Notes under the pieces: model-generated
Seen by the model: the letters and a program-made list of their open reading frames with translations, nothing else
Told to the model about the DNA's origin: nothing
Databases searched by the model: none
Made by a program: the position numbers and the translations under genes
NCBI GenBank assembly: GCA_019058015.1
Contig: JAHLWH010000183.1
Span: 1-41,811 of the forward strand
Reading direction: 5' to 3'
DNA length: 41,811 bases
DNA from: Promethearchaeota archaeon
GTDB lineage: Archaea; Asgardarchaeota; Lokiarchaeia; Sigyniarchaeales; SOKP01
Shown: in pieces, positions 8,402 to 38,985 of the stretch
Numbering within the stretch: the stretch's first letter is position 1
How the letters are laid out: every line of letters begins with the position of its first letter

Positions 8402-10048
8402 TTACGGCATCATATGTGGAGGCGGAGTTTTTAAACAAAATCCACATTTACCAAATGAAGAAATTGTTTGATCCCAACAATGTTTATGATATAATCTCTC
8501 ACAATATGGACATTCCGTTCGACATTGATTATCATCAGCAGACGCAATAGGTAATTTACATGCACCGTCTGGACATTGAATTTGATGACAAATTACACAT
8601 GAAATAACCGAAACTTCAAAAATCTTTTTAGATATCGTGTTAAATAAATCAATTAGATATGTAAAAGGCGTCCAGTCATCAAAGAATTGCTGAATAGATG
8701 TTTCCAGTTTCTTTTTTATTGGCTCGTGGATTTTATCTTCAAATTCATTTAATACTTTAAGTTCGGGAGGATTCATAGGATAATTTGGGGGTAAAATTGC
8801 TTGAAATTCAAAAATAATATTCTCGGTTTTCATTTTACCTTTCATTTTCAGATTAATTGTATTTGTGAAAGCGTCAAATTGAAGCTCATCAATGCCACCT
8901 TTTAATAAATTAATCTCAAAATTTACTCTCGAATTTTTATCAACTAGCCAAGATATTTCTCTTAAAATGTCCACTACTTCTGATTGTTTAGGTATCCAAC
9001 TATTGATAGAGTCTAACTTGGAAGGAGAAATTTGTATTAAACTATTTAATTCTGGGCTGTAATGCAAAACGGGTGGGTTTGGATATTTACTAATATCTAC
9101 CTCTAAATCGTATTCTTTAAATCCATATGTAAGTAAATGAACATTCAACTTTGAAATGTTTCCCTCTATTGGTTCAGCTTGATATTCTCCTGATATTTTT
9201 TTGAATTGAACTTCAATATCTTTTACGAAAAATAATTTATTTTCGATTTCTCGTATTAACTCTACAATATGTGGAGGTGATTTTGAGTTCCATTTTTTAA
9301 GCAAATTAAGTACTTTCTTTGGTTCTCCTAAAAGATTTATTACTTCTTCTGGAAATGTAATGATGGGTTTTTCAGGGTAGTTATTGAAATCAATCTCGAT
9401 GATAAATGTTTTTTCTAAGGTAATTGTGAGATACACGTTGATATCTGCTTTATTTTTTTCTTTTTGATCAATTGGATATTCCATTTGGATTAATCCTAAT
9501 TCTGTAATGACTTCTAAAGGCATAGTAAATGCTTCTTCAGTAAAAGATTGCATTTCTGGTTTTGGAGATTGAAAAGATTCCTCCTTCGGTTTTTCTTCTT
9601 CATAATAGTCAGGAGTAATGAATGAGTCTTGTTGAAGAGATATTTCTTCTGCAGGATATTTGGAATAATCTGGAGTAATATACTCTTCTAATTTTTCAAC
9701 AGGAGGTTGAATAGGACCTAAATCTTCTACAATTTTTGCCGTTCCACTTAAAGCACTTTGAATTTTATCTTTTAATTCTTTTATTATATCAACAACTCTT
9801 GAATCAGGAGTCCAATTCTTTATTTTATCAAGATTTATATCTCCTAATAAATCTTTTATCTCTTGATGAAGTATTATTTGAGGAGGGGCATGAGGAAAAG
9901 TTTCATCAAATTTCACCTCTATAATGAATTTTTGTTTTGAGGTTTCATATACAGCTCCATATAAATGAGCAATATTTCCAGATACCATCCAAAAAGAAAA
10001 TTGTGATGCGATAATTTGAGCTTCTTTTAAAATTCTCTGCTTTTCCAT
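8402..10048 (-). CDS. Four E2/RWD-like repeats plus C-terminal RING-like zinc domain (FANCL-like layout)
   Basis: A 548-residue protein. Four segments share the RWD/UEV/E2-fold signature of a Y/F-P-x(1,2)-P-P/I strand turn, then a tryptophan about 25-35 residues on, then a hydrophobic helix. They are: FPHAPP at 51 with W79; YPEKPI at 224 with W253; YPNPPV at 322 with W351; and YPMNPP at 423 with W459. Repeats 1 and 2 are joined by an acidic, proline-rich linker (about 105-175) with duplicated ITPDY. The C-terminus has C484-x2-C487, C509, C513-x2-C516, H521-x2-C524, C535-x2-C538, a treble-clef RING/PHD-type zinc pattern with CVIC and YHKHCW. No repeat has an E2-type catalytic cysteine. The inferred role is an adaptor or E3-like ubiquitin-family ligase. 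Eukaryotic FANCL has a similar order (E2-like, two RWD, RING). Partners are unknown; no ubiquitin, E1 or E2 gene is in the window. Confidence 0.75.
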   Translation of the reverse strand: MEKQRILKEAQIIASQFSFWMVSGNIAHLYGAVYETSKQKFIIEVKFDETFPHAPPQIILHQEIKDLLGDINLDKIKNWTPDSRVVDIIKELKDKIQSALSGTAKIVEDLGPIQPPVEKLEEYITPDYSKYPAEEISLQQDSFITPDYYEEEKPKEESFQSPKPEMQSFTEEAFTMPLEVITELGLIQMEYPIDQKEKNKADINVYLTITLEKTFIIEIDFNNYPEKPIITFPEEVINLLGEPKKVLNLLKKWNSKSPPHIVELIREIENKLFFVKDIEVQFKKISGEYQAEPIEGNISKLNVHLLTYGFKEYDLEVDISKYPNPPVLHYSPELNSLIQISPSKLDSINSWIPKQSEVVDILREISWLVDKNSRVNFEINLLKGGIDELQFDAFTNTINLKMKGKMKTENIIFEFQAILPPNYPMNPPELKVLNEFEDKIHEPIKKKLETSIQQFFDDWTPFTYLIDLFNTISKKIFEVSVISCVICHQIQCPDGACKLPIASADDNQCRTECPYCERLYHKHCWDQTISSFGKCGFCLKTPPPHMMP

Positions 10049-11059: not shown

Positions 11060-12082
11060 TTAACGATCCTTATACATTTCTTCATAATATTTGAGATACT
11101 CTTCATTGACTATATGTTCTAACCAATCTTGATTTTGTAAATACCATTGTACTGTATCTTTTAATCCATCTTCAATATTGGTTTTTGGTTCCCAAGATAA
11201 CTCATTTTTAATTTTATTAAAATTAATAGCGTATCTTAAATCATGCCCAGGTCGGTCTTTTACAAATTTTATTAGAGTTTCTGGTTTATTTAAAATAGAT
11301 AAGAGCTTTTTAACTAAATCTAAATTTGAAATTTCAGAATTCCCTCCAATATTATAGATCTCTCCAGAAATTCCATGCTTTAAAACTAAATATATAGCTT
11401 CACAATGATCTTCTACAAAAATCCAATCTCTAATATTTTGTCCGGTTCCATAGATTGGTAATTCTTGATTATTCATCGCGTTGTTGATCATTAAAGGTAT
11501 TAATTTTTCAGGAAATTGATAAGGACCGTAATTATTTGAAGAACGGGTGATATTGACTGGTAAATTGAAAGTTTTAAAATATGAGCGGACGATTAAATCT
11601 GCCGATGCTTTACTTGCAGAATAAGGGCTATTTGGTTTTAGTAGTAGGTCTTCAGTAAAAGCAGGATCTTTAAAATTTAATGATCCATAGACTTCATCGG
11701 TCGAGATTTGGATAAATTTTTTAATTTTTAATTTTTTTGCTACGTTCAATAAAGATTGAGTTCCTAAGATATTTGTTTTTATGAAAATATCTGGATTATC
11801 AATAGACCTGTCTACATGTGATTCTGCCGCAAAATTTACTAGATAATCGACATTTTCATAGTTTACGATTTCTAAAATATGTTCAAAATCACAAATATCG
11901 CATTTATAAAATTTATATATTTTCTCATCAAAACCTTCAAATTCTATTAGATTTTCGGGATTTCCAGCATATGTTAAATAATCTACATTAATTATTCTGT
12001 ATTCTTTTTGATTTTTTAACATATAGTGAATAAAATTGCTCCCAATGAAGCCCATACCGCCTGTTATTAAAATATTTTTAAT
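11060..12082 (-). CDS. rmlB: dTDP-glucose 4,6-dehydratase, apparent ATT start
   Basis: With the start proposed here the protein is 340 residues. The first in-frame ATG (12053-12055) falls inside the NAD-binding loop TGGMGFIGSN, so it cannot be the true start. Upstream codons read KNILITGG, the normal beginning of this family, back to an ATT at 12080-12082. No ATG, GTG or TTG lies between the preceding in-frame TAA and that point. A Shine-Dalgarno AGGTGG sits 6 bases before the ATT. STDEVYG and YSASKASAD (catalytic YxxxK) are present, as is NYGPYQFPEKLIPL. The enzyme makes dTDP-4-keto-6-deoxyglucose for rhamnose synthesis. It forms a pair with rmlD but is separated from rmlC and rmlA by the nuclease/TFB cassette. 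Confidence 0.93.
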   Translation of the reverse strand: MKNILITGGMGFIGSNFIHYMLKNQKEYRIINVDYLTYAGNPENLIEFEGFDEKIYKFYKCDICDFEHILEIVNYENVDYLVNFAAESHVDRSIDNPDIFIKTNILGTQSLLNVAKKLKIKKFIQISTDEVYGSLNFKDPAFTEDLLLKPNSPYSASKASADLIVRSYFKTFNLPVNITRSSNNYGPYQFPEKLIPLMINNAMNNQELPIYGTGQNIRDWIFVEDHCEAIYLVLKHGISGEIYNIGGNSEISNLDLVKKLLSILNKPETLIKFVKDRPGHDLRYAINFNKIKNELSWEPKTNIEDGLKDTVQWYLQNQDWLEHIVNEEYLKYYEEMYKDR

Positions 12083-12088
12083 AAAATA

Positions 12089-12094
12089 CCACCT
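12089..12094 (-). promoter_or_regulatory. Shine-Dalgarno AGGTGG deciding the rmlB ATT start
   Basis: AGGTGG on the minus strand lies 6 bases upstream of the ATT at 12082-12080. It matches the anti-Shine-Dalgarno expected at an archaeal 16S 3' end. The GGTG core stands 7 bases from the start, the same as in the aor gene and within one base of rmlA. Confidence 0.65.
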
Positions 12095-12130
12095 GTTAAC
12101 AAAATCTTTTTTTTATAAATAATTAATAAA

Positions 12131-12169
12131 TTTCATACATTCTAAATTTTTTTCATACATTCTAAATTT
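12131..12169. repeat. Two-copy tandem direct repeat in the rmlB leader
   Basis: TTTCATACATTCTAAATTT occurs at 12131-12149 and again at 12151-12169, a period of 20 bases. It lies between the nuclease/TFB gene and rmlB. A 14-base palindrome AAGATATATATCTT follows at 12212-12225. These could be protein-binding sites, or a trace of the event that placed the cassette here; nothing in the sequence decides between them. Confidence 0.6.
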
Positions 12170-12272
12170 ATATTATTAAAGAAATGGAGAACTTGTATTA
12201 ACTTTAATTAAAAGATATATATCTTCAGAATTATTGAAACGTAATTTCTATTAAATATAAAACTTTATTCAA

Positions 12273-13940
12273 TTACTTTAAACTCTTTTTTTGTTCTCTT
12301 AAATATTTTATGAGAGAATTTAGAATTAGAACAGATTCAAGAGAGTGATTTTTAAAAAGTATTATTATTTTAGACAATTCTTTTCGTTGCTTATGCTCTA
12401 ATTGTGTTAAAAGATCCTTAGCTCTTCTATATATTGTTATCTTTGAAGCATTAATTTTATTTCCAATTTTCATAACATTTATTGGTTCATTAAAATATTT
12501 GGTACATAAATAAATTGCACCAGTGGCAATTCCTTTGAGGTTTTTCTTTCCAATAGAAAACCTGTTATTCATTGCATTTTCAACCAATTTTATAGCGATC
12601 TTCTTTACTATAGGTGATAAACTAAAATCATCAACAAATTTATCTATATACTTCTTAATTTTATCAATTCTTTTTATGGGAAAATTTTTGTAAGAGAAGG
12701 AATCAAGAGTAATTTGTTTTTTTTTAGTTTGGAGATCAGAATATAATAAATCCGCCATTTTATTATCTTTTATATATTTAATAAACTCCCTATTCCCAAA
12801 ACAATATTTTTCCTTTAATAAAATCTTGCTTGCACTTGCTAATTCAGCTAATTCCATTCTAGAGTGAGAATTGTATAATGCACTATTAGCTAATTCTACC
12901 ACATGATTAAATTCATCTAATAATTTCCCTTCAAAACCCATAAAATCAGCAAATTCTTTATGGTTTAAGATTTTGATATGTTCTCTAAAAAATATCTTGA
13001 CATCTCTCGGAATTTCTTGATGTAATCTTTTTGATGCACCCAACGGGACTAAAATTAACATTTTTTCCTTTCCTTGATAACCTCTTTGACATTTCCTGAT
13101 TGCTTTTTTCATAGAATATCCAATATAAAAATCCACATTTATTTCTTTAATTTCTTCTTTTATTTTTTTAATCACATTTTGTTTAGATTCGATTGCACCT
13201 TTAAAAACTTCATTTCTCATAATAGTTAAATCAGGAGCCTTTGTGTTATCTCTTAAACTTGTTTTAGATTCTATAAAAGTATTACATTCCAAATTTCTCG
13301 TATGTTCTATACAAATCCTCTCAACACTCCAATGGGTATTTTTACCCGCTTCTATTGTAATATCAAAATTATTAGGAAAATATCCAAGTTTTTCTTCGAC
13401 CTCAGAAATTCTTATTCCTCTTTTATTAAATGCAGATAATATACTAGTGTGTCCATATTTTATGAATTGTTCTAAGGTTGGTACTTGCCTTTTTCCAAGT
13501 TTAATTCCTTCTAAATTAAATAATTTATTTTTTACATCTTTTATAACTGGTTCTAAAAAATCTGGTGCGCTTTGGCTATTCAAATCCTTATATTTTTTGT
13601 GATCGTAAAGATTTTCATAACCCAACTTTCTAAACATATTATTTAAAGTAATTCCTTTTGTATAGGCTATAGTTAATAAGCTTCCATAACCACATTGGGT
13701 AATTTGATCTAAAGTGGGCGCTTCTTTGATTCCAAGTGGTGCTTGATTGTGTATTTTTCTTTTCTTGTTGATTTTATTTACTACATCTTCGATAATTTTT
13801 TTAAATATATCTGGTGCTGTATTTTTATTTAAATCCCTATATTTAGTATCCCGTACAACTTCTCGAGATTCTAAACCATATTCTTTCACTTTCTTTTGTA
13901 CAACATCAGGTTGTATTGTCAATCCTTCTATTTCCTCCAT
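12273..13940 (-). CDS. Fusion: tandem repeats, PD-(D/E)XK-like nuclease, TFB-like cyclin domain
   Basis: A 555-residue protein of three parts. Residues about 32-108 and 116-187 are two copies of one module: APD(I/F)..., then PT(L)(D/E)Q...G(Y/H)(G/T)S(L/I)L, then LGY. This resembles the small DNA-binding repeats found with homing endonucleases. Residues about 200-335 look like a PD-(D/E)XK nuclease core: WSVERICIEHTR helix, PD at 236-237, ESK at 251-253, then DFYIGYS and MLILVPL strands. Residues about 424-515 match the TFIIB/TFB cyclin repeat (GIATGAIYLCTKYFNEP, then ASKITIYRRAKDLL, a recognition-helix segment). The TFB zinc ribbon and a second cyclin repeat are absent. The role is unknown; it could be a DNA-targeting nuclease of a mobile or defence element, or a specialised transcription-linked factor. 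It sits inside the rml genes next to a 91-residue ORF. Confidence 0.7.
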   Translation of the reverse strand: MEEIEGLTIQPDVVQKKVKEYGLESREVVRDTKYRDLNKNTAPDIFKKIIEDVVNKINKKRKIHNQAPLGIKEAPTLDQITQCGYGSLLTIAYTKGITLNNMFRKLGYENLYDHKKYKDLNSQSAPDFLEPVIKDVKNKLFNLEGIKLGKRQVPTLEQFIKYGHTSILSAFNKRGIRISEVEEKLGYFPNNFDITIEAGKNTHWSVERICIEHTRNLECNTFIESKTSLRDNTKAPDLTIMRNEVFKGAIESKQNVIKKIKEEIKEINVDFYIGYSMKKAIRKCQRGYQGKEKMLILVPLGASKRLHQEIPRDVKIFFREHIKILNHKEFADFMGFEGKLLDEFNHVVELANSALYNSHSRMELAELASASKILLKEKYCFGNREFIKYIKDNKMADLLYSDLQTKKKQITLDSFSYKNFPIKRIDKIKKYIDKFVDDFSLSPIVKKIAIKLVENAMNNRFSIGKKNLKGIATGAIYLCTKYFNEPINVMKIGNKINASKITIYRRAKDLLTQLEHKQRKELSKIIILFKNHSLESVLILNSLIKYLREQKKSLK

Positions 13941-13979
13941 TTTTGAGATTTTGTTTGTAGTGTAATTAGTGCTCTTAAG

Positions 13980-14255
13980 CTAATGGATAATATATTTCTC
14001 AATCCATTTCTCACTATTAATTATTTTAATTTTATATAATAATTCTTCTTTTTCATTAGGTTTGAGCTTTTCATAATTTTTTACAAATTTCTTGAAATCA
14101 GGTCTTAGTATAAAACCATAATTGACATGGCCATACTTCTTATCTTCACAGTTAGAATATTCTTTATATAAAGTTGTTAATTTAGGATATAATAAGTTAT
14201 TATCAAAAATTTTTTCATCAAATTTCTTCTCAATTTCAGGTAGAAAATCGTTCAT
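13980..14255 (-). CDS. Small hypothetical protein upstream of the nuclease/TFB gene
   Basis: A 91-residue, highly charged protein (many K, E and D; no membrane segment, no cysteine pair). I do not recognise a family. It starts MNDFLPEIEKKFDE and contains KPNEKEELLYKI, a predicted helix. It ends 39 bases before the nuclease/TFB gene on the same strand, so the two may form one transcript. It could be a partner or immunity/antitoxin-like protein, but nothing in the sequence demonstrates that. It could also be a leftover of an older gene. Confidence 0.5.
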   Translation of the reverse strand: MNDFLPEIEKKFDEKIFDNNLLYPKLTTLYKEYSNCEDKKYGHVNYGFILRPDFKKFVKNYEKLKPNEKEELLYKIKIINSEKWIEKYIIH

Positions 14256-14881
14256 TTTTTAACGTGTTCCAATTAAAACTTCCTACATTTTTCTACAGAA
14301 ACATTAATAATTTTTAACATATAACTTAATTGACCTTAACAATTTTTAATAAAATAGATTATCACAAATTCTGCCTTTTGTTAAATCCTTATCATCTCAG
14401 AAAAAATAAAATCCTTATTTTTAATTGGATACTTCTTCCTCTTTTTAGTTTTTTGAAAACTTTTATATTCCTTTATTATCTATTCGGAAAAGAAATTTGT
14501 AATCCCGTAAAATTTACAATACAATTAAATAATCGATATAATTCATTATTTACTTTAATAACACTTTTAATATAACACCTACGTTTTTTAGCATCTCTGA
14601 AAAATTAATTTCAAAAATCTCTTATTTCATAAATCGATGATAGGTATTTTTTTATCTCAACATTTGATGAGATAGTTCGAATCATCTAAAAATTGCTATT
14701 ACTAAAATATATTTGATTCTAAGTACTGCATAAAAAAAGGTTAAGAAAAATTTTTTCAATCAAAGATATAACGCTTTATTTCGCGCAAAAAAAGCTTAGT
14801 GAGGTCCAAAACTTTTTTAATTTTTATAACTGATATATCTTTAGATTTTCAGATTGGTTTCTCCCTTTTTCCTTTTATATT
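14256..14881. other. 626-base non-coding gap between rmlC and the inserted cassette
   Basis: Very AT-rich with no convincing gene on either strand; short open frames here lack a ribosome binding site and recognisable motifs. It holds a nested inverted repeat: GATGAT at 14636-14641 pairs with ATCATC at 14681-14686, and inside it ATCTCA at 14654-14659 pairs with TGAGAT at 14668-14673. This could form an RNA hairpin. The gap probably contains the promoter of the small ORF/nuclease unit and the end of the rmlA-rmlC transcript. Its unusual length in a gene-dense stretch fits an insertion boundary. Confidence 0.5.
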
Positions 14882-32716: not shown

Positions 32717-33673
32717 ATGTTTGAATTTGTATTTGCGCTACTATTTTTGATTGGCGGGATTTTAATTATATTTTTTGCCAGTAATATAGCTGTCAAGCAT
32801 TCTGCCATACTTGCATCCGCTCTAGGTATATCTCCCTTAATAATCGGTATTTCATTGGTGTCAATAGGCACTGATCTTCCTGAAATATTTAACTCAATCA
32901 TATCATGCTCTTTAGGACATGGAGATATTGATGTAGGGGATTCTGTAGGTTCAATTTTAACTCAGATTACTTTGGTCTTTGGGCTTCTACCTATAATTTG
33001 CGGTTCATTTAAGATTGATAGAAAGGAAATTATTATCTTGGGTGCTTGCCAAATTTTAGGGCTTATAGTGATTTATGCTATTCTTGAAAAAGGATATTTC
33101 ACTCAACTTAATGCTATTATTATGGTTGGAAGTTTGGTGATTTATTTAATAATAATAAGTAGTGTTACTAAGGAAAGCATTTTGGAGCGGGTAGATTTGA
33201 TAGAAAAAACAGATACTACCAGAAGTAAACCATTTCATATTATAATAGCCTTTTTAGGTTTTATAGGAGTAGCTATTGGTGCATCTGCCATTGTTCAATC
33301 AATAATTACACTCTCAAGCATATTTCATGTTCATGAATATATCATTAGTTTTTTTATAGCCAGTCTCGGAACTTCTCTCCCAGAATTAGTAGTCGATGTA
33401 AATGCTATTCGTAAGAAACATTATAAAATCGCAATTGGAGATATAGTTGGTAGTTGTATAGTTGATTCAACACTCTCCATAGGGATAGGGCAAGTACTTT
33501 TTCCACAAGTAATTTCTGCCGAACTCGCAGTTCCGACAGTTCTATATACTCTTTTTGCATCTTTTATAGTTTTTATTATTGTTGCAGTTAAAAAAAAAAT
33601 GGATAAAAAAGCTGGAATTGCTTTCATCATACTCTATTTATTTTCATATTTATTATTATTTATTTTAATCTAA
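32717..33673 (+). CDS. CaCA-family cation (Ca2+ or K+/Na+)/H+ or Na+ exchanger, copy 1
   Basis: A 318-residue membrane protein with about 10 hydrophobic helices in two halves. Alpha-repeat 1 is SIGTDLPEIFNSIISCSLGH followed by DVGDSVGS, and alpha-repeat 2 is ASLGTSLPELVVDVNAIRKK followed by IGDIVGS. Both keep the GT/S-x-x-PE cation-binding signature, including the key glutamates. The usual asparagine after the second glycine is replaced by aspartate (GDSVGS, GDIVGS). The loop between the halves is short and charged (SVTKESILERVDLIEK). It is the YrbG-like length, so an inner-membrane exchanger. The ion specificity is unknown. Divergent from the small regulator, with operator-like palindromes before it. 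Confidence 0.85.
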   Translation: MFEFVFALLFLIGGILIIFFASNIAVKHSAILASALGISPLIIGISLVSIGTDLPEIFNSIISCSLGHGDIDVGDSVGSILTQITLVFGLLPIICGSFKIDRKEIIILGACQILGLIVIYAILEKGYFTQLNAIIMVGSLVIYLIIISSVTKESILERVDLIEKTDTTRSKPFHIIIAFLGFIGVAIGASAIVQSIITLSSIFHVHEYIISFFIASLGTSLPELVVDVNAIRKKHYKIAIGDIVGSCIVDSTLSIGIGQVLFPQVISAELAVPTVLYTLFASFIVFIIVAVKKKMDKKAGIAFIILYLFSYLLLFILI

Positions 33674-34373: not shown

Positions 34374-35336
34374 ATGTATGAAATCTTATTTGCGATTATA
34401 TTTCTTATTATCGGAATATTTCTTATAGCATTTTCCAGTAAAATCGCTGTAAAACATTCAGCAATCCTCGCAACTGCTCTTGGTGTATCACCTTTAATAA
34501 TCGGTCTCTCATTGGTATCAATAGGAACAGATCTTCCAGAAATATTTAACTCAATTATCTCATGTTCTTTAGGGCACGGAGATATTGATGTAGGGGATTC
34601 TGTAGGTTCAGATTTAACTCAATTAACTTTAGTTTTTGGACTTCTGCCCATAATTTGCGGCTCATTTAAGGTTGATAGAAGGGAAATCATTGTATTAGGT
34701 GGATGTGAGATTTTATCACTTATAGTAATTTATGCCATTGTTGAAAAAGGATATTTTACTCGACTTAATGCACTTATTATGGTTGGGAGTTTGGTGATTT
34801 ATTTAATAATAATAAGTAGAGTTACTAAGGAAAGTATTTTGGAGCGGGTAGATTTGATGGAAAAAATTGAAACTACTAGAAGCAAACCATTTCATATTAT
34901 GATTGCCTCTTTAGGTTTCATAGGCGTAGCTATTGGCGCATATGCAATCGTTCAATCAATAATAACACTCTCAAGTGTACTTGATGTTCATGAATATATC
35001 ATCAGTTTCTTTATAGCTAGCCTCGGTACTTCTCTCCCAGAATTAGTAGTCGATATAAATGCTATTCGCAATAAACATTATAAGATCGCAATCGGAGATA
35101 TTGTTGGTAGTTGCATAGTTGATTCAACACTCTCCATAGGAATAGGACAAGTACTTTTTCCACAAGCGGTTTCTGCCGAAATCGCAATTCCTACAATTCT
35201 TTATACTCTTTTAGTATCTTTTATTGTTTTTGTCATGGTTGCAGTAAGAAAAAAAATGGATAAAAAAGCTGGTATTATCTTCATTTCCCTATATTTAGCT
35301 TCATACATATTTCTCTTTTTTACGATTTGGATTTAA
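34374..35336 (+). CDS. CaCA-family cation exchanger, copy 2
   Basis: A 320-residue paralogue of the gene at 32717-33673, with the same helix layout. The alpha repeats are SIGTDLPEIFNSIISCSLGH and ASLGTSLPELVVDINAIRNK. A visible difference lies after the first repeat, GDSVGSDLTQ here versus GDSVGSILTQ in copy 1, adding an acidic residue beside the ion site. This might alter selectivity, though that is inference. Other changes are mostly conservative and lie in the membrane helices. Start ATG at 34374; the Shine-Dalgarno is weak (TGCTGAAAA). Confidence 0.85.
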   Translation: MYEILFAIIFLIIGIFLIAFSSKIAVKHSAILATALGVSPLIIGLSLVSIGTDLPEIFNSIISCSLGHGDIDVGDSVGSDLTQLTLVFGLLPIICGSFKVDRREIIVLGGCEILSLIVIYAIVEKGYFTRLNALIMVGSLVIYLIIISRVTKESILERVDLMEKIETTRSKPFHIMIASLGFIGVAIGAYAIVQSIITLSSVLDVHEYIISFFIASLGTSLPELVVDINAIRNKHYKIAIGDIVGSCIVDSTLSIGIGQVLFPQAVSAEIAIPTILYTLLVSFIVFVMVAVRKKMDKKAGIIFISLYLASYIFLFFTIWI

Positions 35337-38341: not shown

Positions 38342-38758
38342 TTATTTAATTGATTTGATTCTACTCAAAATTTCCTCAGTTGTTAGAATCTCTATCTGAT
38401 TTTGTTGTTCTTTTAATTTTTTATCATTCGACCAAACTTTAGCGTTTATCGTTAAAGCAAGGGCTAAATAAACAACATCTTTAGGATCGGGAGATATTTC
38501 TGTACCTTGCTCTATAAATAACATAATATCTTCTTGCGGAATAATTTTAATTCTTCGCTTGAATAGCTCTAAAAATTTTTTAAAATCATCGCTAGTTCTA
38601 TGAGTCTTTTTTAGAATTATCTTTTCATATTTTGCAAATTCATCTAAAAGAAATTCTGGTGCATAAAGTTGAAGCTCATCATTAATAATTAATTCAGCAG
38701 TTAATGAGTCTTTAATTAATGCTGCAAATAATATATTAGCATCAATTACCAATCTCAC
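38342..38758 (-). CDS. vapC: VapC-like PIN-domain toxin
   Basis: A 138-residue PIN nuclease. Acidic residues D6 (LVIDANILFAALI), E40 (FLLDEFAKYE region), D92 to D94 (ISPDPKDVVYLALAL) and D111 (VWSNDKKL) form the Mg2+ site. VapC toxins cleave RNA, often tRNA or rRNA. The GTG start overlaps the stop codon of the upstream antitoxin by one base (TAGTG), typical of toxin-antitoxin pairs. The target is unknown. Confidence 0.85.
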   Translation of the reverse strand: MRLVIDANILFAALIKDSLTAELIINDELQLYAPEFLLDEFAKYEKIILKKTHRTSDDFKKFLELFKRRIKIIPQEDIMLFIEQGTEISPDPKDVVYLALALTINAKVWSNDKKLKEQQNQIEILTTEEILSRIKSIK

Positions 38759-38985
38759 TAATGATCCCTCTTATATCGCCTAGCTAAAAGTTTACTTACT
38801 TCTTGTCCTAAAACTTCTGCTTCTTCGGGGGAAATATCACTATTCACTCTAAAACCTTTTAAAAAATTAAGATCTGCTATTTTTTGTCTCATTGATGCCC
38901 TTGCAACCTCCGACCAATTAATTTCTGGGAACTTCTCTATTTCTTTCTTTAAATCATCAGGGATTGAAAAAGTAAAATTCGTCAT
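38758..38985 (-). CDS. vapB: Antitoxin of the VapBC-like pair (ribbon-helix-helix)
   Basis: A 75-residue protein. The first part is a ribbon-helix-helix (TNFTFSIPDDLKKEIEKFPE, then NWSEVARASMRQKI), the usual DNA-binding part of VapB-type antitoxins. The basic C-terminal SKLLARRYKRDH tail would wrap the PIN toxin. It precedes vapC with translational coupling. Direct repeats of TATGTGAA lie 47-64 bases upstream and could be its operator. Confidence 0.8.
   Translation of the reverse strand: MTNFTFSIPDDLKKEIEKFPEINWSEVARASMRQKIADLNFLKGFRVNSDISPEEAEVLGQEVSKLLARRYKRDH

Follow-up and report, generated by a model that had tools for sequence, protein, structure and literature searches.

Locus and gene structure

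What kind of gene joins a nuclease-like core to part of the archaeal general transcription factor TFB, and how did it come to lie between rfbC and rfbB? This question is raised by an ORF in a 41,811-nt stretch of DNA from Promethearchaeota archaeon (Lokiarchaeia; contig JAHLWH010000183.1, hereafter the window). The ORF is a real gene, running in one uninterrupted frame of 555 amino acids on the minus strand. Each part of the encoded protein is of a known kind. The features of the locus are collected in Table 1.

Table 1. Features of the insertion and of the fusion gene, with positions in the window
Feature	Position	Strand	Remarks
Insertion, ~2.8 kb, between rfbC stop codon and rfbB start	12085..14880		GC 0.248 vs 0.287 for the window
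Imperfect second copy of the rfbB start, downstream edge of the insertion	12086..12112	-	22/27 nt; in frame with rfbB
Fusion gene	12273..13940	-	555 codons: helical repeats, PD-(D/E)XK-like nuclease, TFB cyclin repeat, C-terminal helices
C-terminal helical extension, residues 516-555	12276..12395	-	Model helices run to the protein end
TFB/TFIIB cyclin repeat, repeat-2 type, residues 417-515	12396..12692	-	Pfam, phmmer, model, tree
Recognition helix of the cyclin repeat, residues 499-511	12408..12446	-	SKITIYRRAKDLL (TFBs: TEVTLRMRVKDL); comparison with TFBs
Predicted nuclease core, residues 192-334	12939..13367	-	Predicted fold, Foldseek, conservation across 88 domains
Repeat 2, residues 116-189, helical	13374..13595	-	DNA repeat and model helices
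Repeat 1, residues 33-115, helical	13596..13844	-	Direct DNA repeat D1; model helices 42-63, 77-82, 86-94, 99-105
Small ORF, 91 aa, 40 bp upstream of the fusion gene	13980..14255	-	Same strand as the fusion gene

The initial annotation described two repeats of ~75 residues before the nuclease. These are present and visible in the DNA, where 72 nt are 74% identical at a spacing of 249 nt, corresponding to a period of 83 residues. Both repeats are helical in the structural model of residues 1-412 (helices 42-105 and 125-184). No relatives of the 91-aa ORF upstream of the fusion gene were found.

Elsewhere in the window, the minus-strand ORF at 8402-10048 (548 aa) has matches to UQ_con (E2-like) and RWD and a cysteine-rich C-terminus, resembling a protein of the Asgard ubiquitin system. 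Two very similar sodium/calcium exchanger genes lie in tandem, ~700 bp apart, at 32717-33673 and 34374-35336. A PIN-domain protein (PF10130) is encoded at 38342-38985 and preceded by a small ORF; the two are likely a VapBC-type pair.

Insertion between rfbC and rfbB

The fusion gene, the 91-aa ORF and ~600 bp without a convincing gene make up the insertion, which interrupts a sugar-synthesis operon. In the related genomes G001 and G004 the gap between rfbC and rfbB is ~26 bp and holds no insertion; BLAST matches to both end at 12073/12074 and restart at 14875/14880. The site is empty in these close relatives, as is expected for a homing endonuclease gene. Operon identities are 91-93% between the window genome (G000) and G001, 88-90% between G000 and G004, and 89-90% between G001 and G004, making G001 the likely sister of the window genome and G004 an outgroup. 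Since G001 is likely the sister and lacks the insertion, these comparisons are most simply explained if the lineage of the window genome gained it.

The boundary of the insertion is not clean. At its downstream edge the ATG of rfbB is lost, and a second, imperfect copy of the start precedes the gene. None of 5000 dinucleotide shuffles reaches the observed 22/27 match. The copy is absent from 57 relative genomes with up to two mismatches allowed, and it may have been left by the flank of the donor. No reverse transcriptase, methyltransferase or defence gene was seen among the insertion's ORFs. Rfam gave no match in the window, and a group I or group II intron was rejected on this basis and on the intergenic position of the insertion.

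Just downstream of the fusion gene, at 12131-12168, lie two exact 18-nt copies (TTTCATACATTCTAAATT), 20 nt apart. In the same operon of G004 (locus L096, 10730-13650), a partial rfbA start (~90 codons, 90% identical) is followed by a 387-aa ORF with a weak DUF2334 match and then by an intact rfbA. The rml operon may be an insertion hot spot, and duplicated gene starts at the edges of inserts may be a pattern.

A predicted PD-(D/E)XK core with its lysine on a helix

Residues 1-412 were modelled from an alignment of 25 sequences, with a mean pLDDT of 84. The predicted structure contains an alpha-beta3-alpha-beta core at residues 192-299, consisting of helix 192-216, strands 221-223, 238-241 and 266-272, helix 277-284 and strand 293-299. 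A Foldseek search against the PDB gave MspJI as the top match (E=7.3e-3, prob 0.97), followed by R2 retrotransposon structures at ranks 2-5, with Can2, McrC and AF1548 within the first fifteen and all E-values above 1e-3. MspJI, the R2 restriction-like endonuclease (RLE), Can2, McrC and AF1548 are all PD-(D/E)XK nucleases. At the sequence level, no profile in Pfam, NCBIfam or PADLOC describes the core at a significant level, and a profile of the core found no chain among the PDB sequences at E<=10. A strong sequence kinship to HSDR_N was rejected, the match reaching E=0.02 only.

Across 88 near-complete nuclease domains, the conserved positions are G199, H203 (81/88), E224 (81/88), D237 (83/88), D270 (76/88), K283 (77/88), K/R286, Y288 and Q289. 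All of them are kept in the fusion protein, with arginine instead of lysine at position 286. Position 272 is a tyrosine, where most family members have threonine. In the model, D270 lies on strand 266-272 and K283 on helix 277-284. The conserved D237, D270 and K283 supply the acidic pair and the lysine of a PD-(D/E)XK nuclease, with the lysine shifted to the helix after the third strand, as in R2-type RLEs. The RLE of R2Bm has a PD-(D/E)xK fold in which Asp996 and Asp1009 are accompanied by Lys1026, located on a helix rather than on a strand (PMC10499050).

Based on the model core and the structural matches, the nuclease-like fold that the initial annotation placed at about residues 200-335 is supported. 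The motif it named, a PD followed by ESK, is replaced by E224, D237, D270 and K283: E251-S252-K253 was rejected as catalytic motif, since these residues are not conserved and lie outside strand 3. Residues 192-334 are predicted to form a PD-(D/E)XK nuclease, and the gene likely encodes a DNA-cutting enzyme of an undescribed family.

A cyclin repeat derived from TFB

The C-terminal part contains a bona fide TFB cyclin repeat of the repeat-2 type at residues 429-509. This region is matched by PF00382 (TFIIB repeat; E=3.1e-6, 27.5 bits vs a curated cut-off of 23.6), and phmmer matches it to repeat 2 of Pyrococcus TFB (1ais_B, E=2.8e-5). In the NCBIfam TFB model of 312 positions, residues 426-515 align to positions 219-307, which is repeat 2, and the fusion protein scores 28.6 bits vs a cut-off of 384. 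Modelled with AlphaFold (mean pLDDT 75, with values mostly of 71-92 in the cyclin part), residues 400-555 show the five-helix cyclin fold of a TFIIB/TFB repeat. The best Foldseek matches of this model are the TBP-TFB-DNA structures 1ais and 1d3u (prob 1.00; 88 columns superposed at an rmsd of 1.6-1.7 A). When cyclin repeats are placed in a tree, those of the repeat-1 type group separately (100/100). The fusion module joins the repeat-2 part, where the shortest path leads to the TFB of the same genus; its placement is weakly supported and its branch is long. The identity to this TFB is 38-39%.

These profile and structure results bear out the TFB-like cyclin domain first read from sequence motifs. 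Its reported lack of a zinc ribbon and a second cyclin repeat holds as well, since neither was found in the fusion protein with the Pfam and NCBIfam profiles. The DNA-contacting pattern ascribed to the repeat is only partly kept: the recognition-helix string T-E-V-T-L-R, nearly invariant in lokiarchaeial TFBs, reads S-K-I-T-I-Y. The arginine of this string presumably corresponds to R286 of human TFIIB, involved in BRE recognition. A full TFB general transcription factor is ruled out by the single cyclin repeat, the lack of a zinc ribbon and the altered BRE-recognition helix.

TFB genes are multiplied in these archaea, with 6-26 TFIIB-repeat matches per genome. Two further proteins with TFB parts were noted. 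L172 (G016:C7, 2695-4230, minus strand, 512 aa), from a Lokiarchaeial genome, is a fusion in which a complete TFB, with zinc ribbon and both cyclin repeats, is joined to an Arf-type small GTPase domain (PF00025, E=2.9e-9). L170 (G061:C53, 4487-6931, plus strand, 815 aa) has a TFIIB repeat (77.6 bits) after a long N-terminal part that matches nothing in Pfam.

The nuclease family and its exchangeable modules

Of 228 genomes of the phylum, 40 contain the nuclease according to profile searches, namely 39 of the 65 genomes of the fusion gene's own family and one from a sister family. Up to 10 diverse copies occur per genome, and four of the loci belong to Lokiarchaeota/Lokiarchaeia MAGs. In total, 99 distinct ORFs with the nuclease were collected, nearly all from one Lokiarchaeial family. 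The nuclease usually comes last in the protein, located behind arrays of ~75-aa repeats, of sigma70-region-4-like and other HTHs, or of DUF4379 treble clefs. One repeat protein matches the homing endonuclease associated repeat PF18780 below threshold (22.2 vs 26 bits). In L125, L205 and L140, a C-terminal tail behind the nuclease resembles an RNase_T-type DEDD exonuclease domain.

The family appears to be undescribed in the sources searched. Searches of open-licence papers, including those on Asgard mobile elements and defence, found no description of a nuclease-TFB fusion, of this nuclease family or of TFB repeats as nuclease modules. No relatives were found in IMG/VR (four queries), phage records or plasmids in scans that reach close relatives only, and viral carriage was rejected within this scope.

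The nuclease and TFB parts were profiled by two separate models, the TFB rows being misaligned in a joint full-length alignment. Scanning all ORFs of the nuclease loci with TFB models identified three nuclease-TFB proteins, in genera g1, g2 and g8, and overturned the idea of a unique, one-off fusion. In all three the cyclin part lies behind the nuclease, with one repeat in the fusion gene, two in L217 and seven in L173. L217, from another genus, has 954 aa, with the nuclease at 404-594, a cyclin repeat at 624-706, a weaker one at ~720-790 and winged helices thereafter. L173, from a third genus, has 1720 aa, with the nuclease at 762-958 and seven tandem repeats at 1055-1712 (Pfam TFIIB, 69.5 bits), whose recognition helices differ from one another. 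The cyclin repeats of both proteins are strongly diverged.

No cyclin part was detected in the remaining 96 of the 99 nuclease ORFs, so the two parts do not always travel together. In the nuclease tree, the fusion protein belongs to a clade of 21 rows (SH-aLRT 99) that includes neither L217 nor L173, and the tree requires at least two changes of the fused state. At least two origins of the nuclease-TFB fusion are indicated by this tree. With three of 99 ORFs fused and at least two such changes, the pairing is therefore neither universal nor a single accident.

Mobility among relatives

The locations of homologues vary among relatives, as the initial annotation had considered possible, and in one case a transfer can be followed. 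The nucleases of L050 (genome G002) and L160 (G076, another genus) are 90.3% identical in DNA. Beside the L050 nuclease, dapB of G002 is 90.7% identical to G076 and 79.7% to its own genus (G004). For dapA, the next gene, the relation is reversed (92.9% to its own genus vs 69.2% to G076). In windows of 75 nt, G002 is ~95% identical to G076 over the first 375 nt past the nuclease and ~96% identical to G004 from ~8616 on, the stretch between being alike in all three genomes. This pattern is what a transfer of the nuclease gene together with its flank, i.e. a homing-like co-conversion, would leave. The moved relative shares the nuclease clade with the fusion gene.

Another pair, L127 and L131 from two species, shares 98.3% identity across 4.5 kb and lies beside an AAA_5 ATPase, with different DNA methyltransferases downstream. 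Some family members keep the same neighbours across genera. L046, L109 and L053 adjoin a similar DEAD-type helicase in two genera, and the neighbour of L046 carries MrfA Zn-binding and HRQ1 winged-helix domains. For these members this suggests a conserved, non-mobile location.

Explanation of the fusion gene and its rivals

The chances are about evenly balanced that the fusion gene is a free-standing, homing-like mobile gene, encoding a site-specific endonuclease of an undescribed Lokiarchaeial family in which a TFB repeat was recruited as DNA reader. Its core would have the PD-(D/E)XK fold and, in the manner of R2-type RLEs, carry its lysine on the helix that follows strand 3. Specificity would come from the attached DNA-binding modules, which vary from member to member; in the fusion protein the readers would be the two helical repeats in front and the one cyclin repeat behind, the latter derived from a host TFB and serving as a helix-turn-helix module. 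An allele without the gene would be cut by the nuclease, and its repair from the copy that holds the gene would spread the gene along with some flanking DNA. The candidate for an undescribed mobile-element-like system that the initial annotation saw here is favoured by the insertion, absent from sister and outgroup, by the second rfbB start at the junction, by the exchangeable DNA-binding modules of the family, by the recurrence of the nuclease-TFB fusion and by the transfer with flank within the family. Several observations count against this explanation. The conserved position of some members beside a DEAD helicase in two genera is atypical of a purely selfish gene, the surroundings of L127/L131 fit defence, and the co-conversion case concerns the relative L050/L160 rather than the fusion gene, for which homing is inferred. 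In addition, the Foldseek E-values of the nuclease all exceed 1e-3, and the insertion lacks a clean boundary. A more general proposal, somewhat short of an even chance, sees in the TFB cyclin repeats a modular array for reading DNA, in which every repeat (as many as seven in L173) brings its own recognition helix. Coupling of such arrays to a mobile nuclease would have produced a class of site-specific endonucleases built from a general transcription factor.

A solo restriction-like defence enzyme, which would cleave incoming DNA where the arrays recognise it, is unlikely, but L127/L131 above all make it a serious rival. The many diverse copies per genome and their variable positions would suit such a role. 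However, the fusion gene stands alone in a housekeeping operon, its insertion shows neither a methyltransferase nor a defence gene, and PADLOC gives no match for the fusion protein. Rather more doubtful is a nuclease or regulator guided to promoters or to TBP-bound DNA, as was proposed at first, in which the TFB module would dock on the BRE or on TBP-bound DNA and either attack foreign promoters or control transcription. The repeat is clearly of TFB origin, closest to a TFB of the same genus, and the fusion seems to have arisen more than once. The first TFB cyclin repeat makes most TBP contacts. Because this repeat is missing and the recognition-helix residues are lost, promoter steering is possible but not favoured, and no test supports it. 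The zinc ribbon is absent too, the repeats of L173 and L217 are strongly diverged as well, and most family members use unrelated DNA-binding modules. The differing helices of L173 fit general DNA reading better than docking on BRE or TBP.

A DNA-binding regulator with an inactive, nuclease-derived core is very unlikely. It would account for a lysine away from its usual place on strand 3 and for the tyrosine at position 272, but the polar positions conserved over the 88 domains are kept, with arginine for lysine at 286, and the position of the lysine resembles that of the active R2 RLE. Least credible of all is an assembly chimera or a chance read-through joining two genes. The fusion gene comes from a single metagenome-derived contig, and no second assembly of it was found. 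An artefact of frame or assembly is opposed by 555 codons that read through without a break, by flanks that belong to a single operon split in two, and by nuclease-TFB fusions in the same order in two other assemblies.

Comparison with known systems

General transcription factors are unexpected as parts of nucleases. If the cyclin repeat does serve as a DNA reader that can be exchanged, it would add a new scaffold for reading sequence, and the fusion gene would be an example of mobile genes recruiting host transcription parts in archaea close to eukaryotes.

Among known proteins, the cyclin part resembles cyclin repeat 2 of the archaeal TFB/TFIIB core (PF00382) in its fold and in its identity to the TFB of the same genus. 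The fusion protein differs from TFB by its single repeat, the lack of a zinc ribbon, the replaced recognition-helix residues and the position of the repeat behind a nuclease. The RLE of R2 non-LTR retrotransposons shares the PD-(D/E)XK fold and likewise has its lysine on the helix following strand 3 (PMC10499050). In contrast to R2, the fusion protein is archaeal, has no reverse transcriptase and no significant sequence match to the RLE, and carries other DNA-binding modules. A homing-type selfish insertion in an Asgard genome is represented by HeimM2 of Heimdallarchaeum, a homing-endonuclease homologue located between 16S rRNA and tRNA genes. It differs in being described as a homologue of rRNA-intron homing endonucleases, and the portion of that paper drawn on here mentions no nuclease-TFB protein (PMC8813620). 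MspJI, a type II/modification-dependent restriction enzyme, shares the PD-(D/E)XK fold and is the best single Foldseek match, whereas the fusion gene has no methyltransferase in its locus, encodes repeat arrays and shows no detected sequence similarity to MspJI.

A further comparison is with free-standing homing endonucleases of the HNH, GIY-YIG or Vsr type that have modular DNA-binding domains such as NUMOD, treble clef and PF18780 repeats. The fusion gene differs from them by a nuclease family undescribed in the sources searched, by TFB repeats as modules and by the putative nature of its homing. It resembles them as a single inserted gene with modular DNA-binding arrays, absent from the sister genome and with a co-conversion pattern in a relative.
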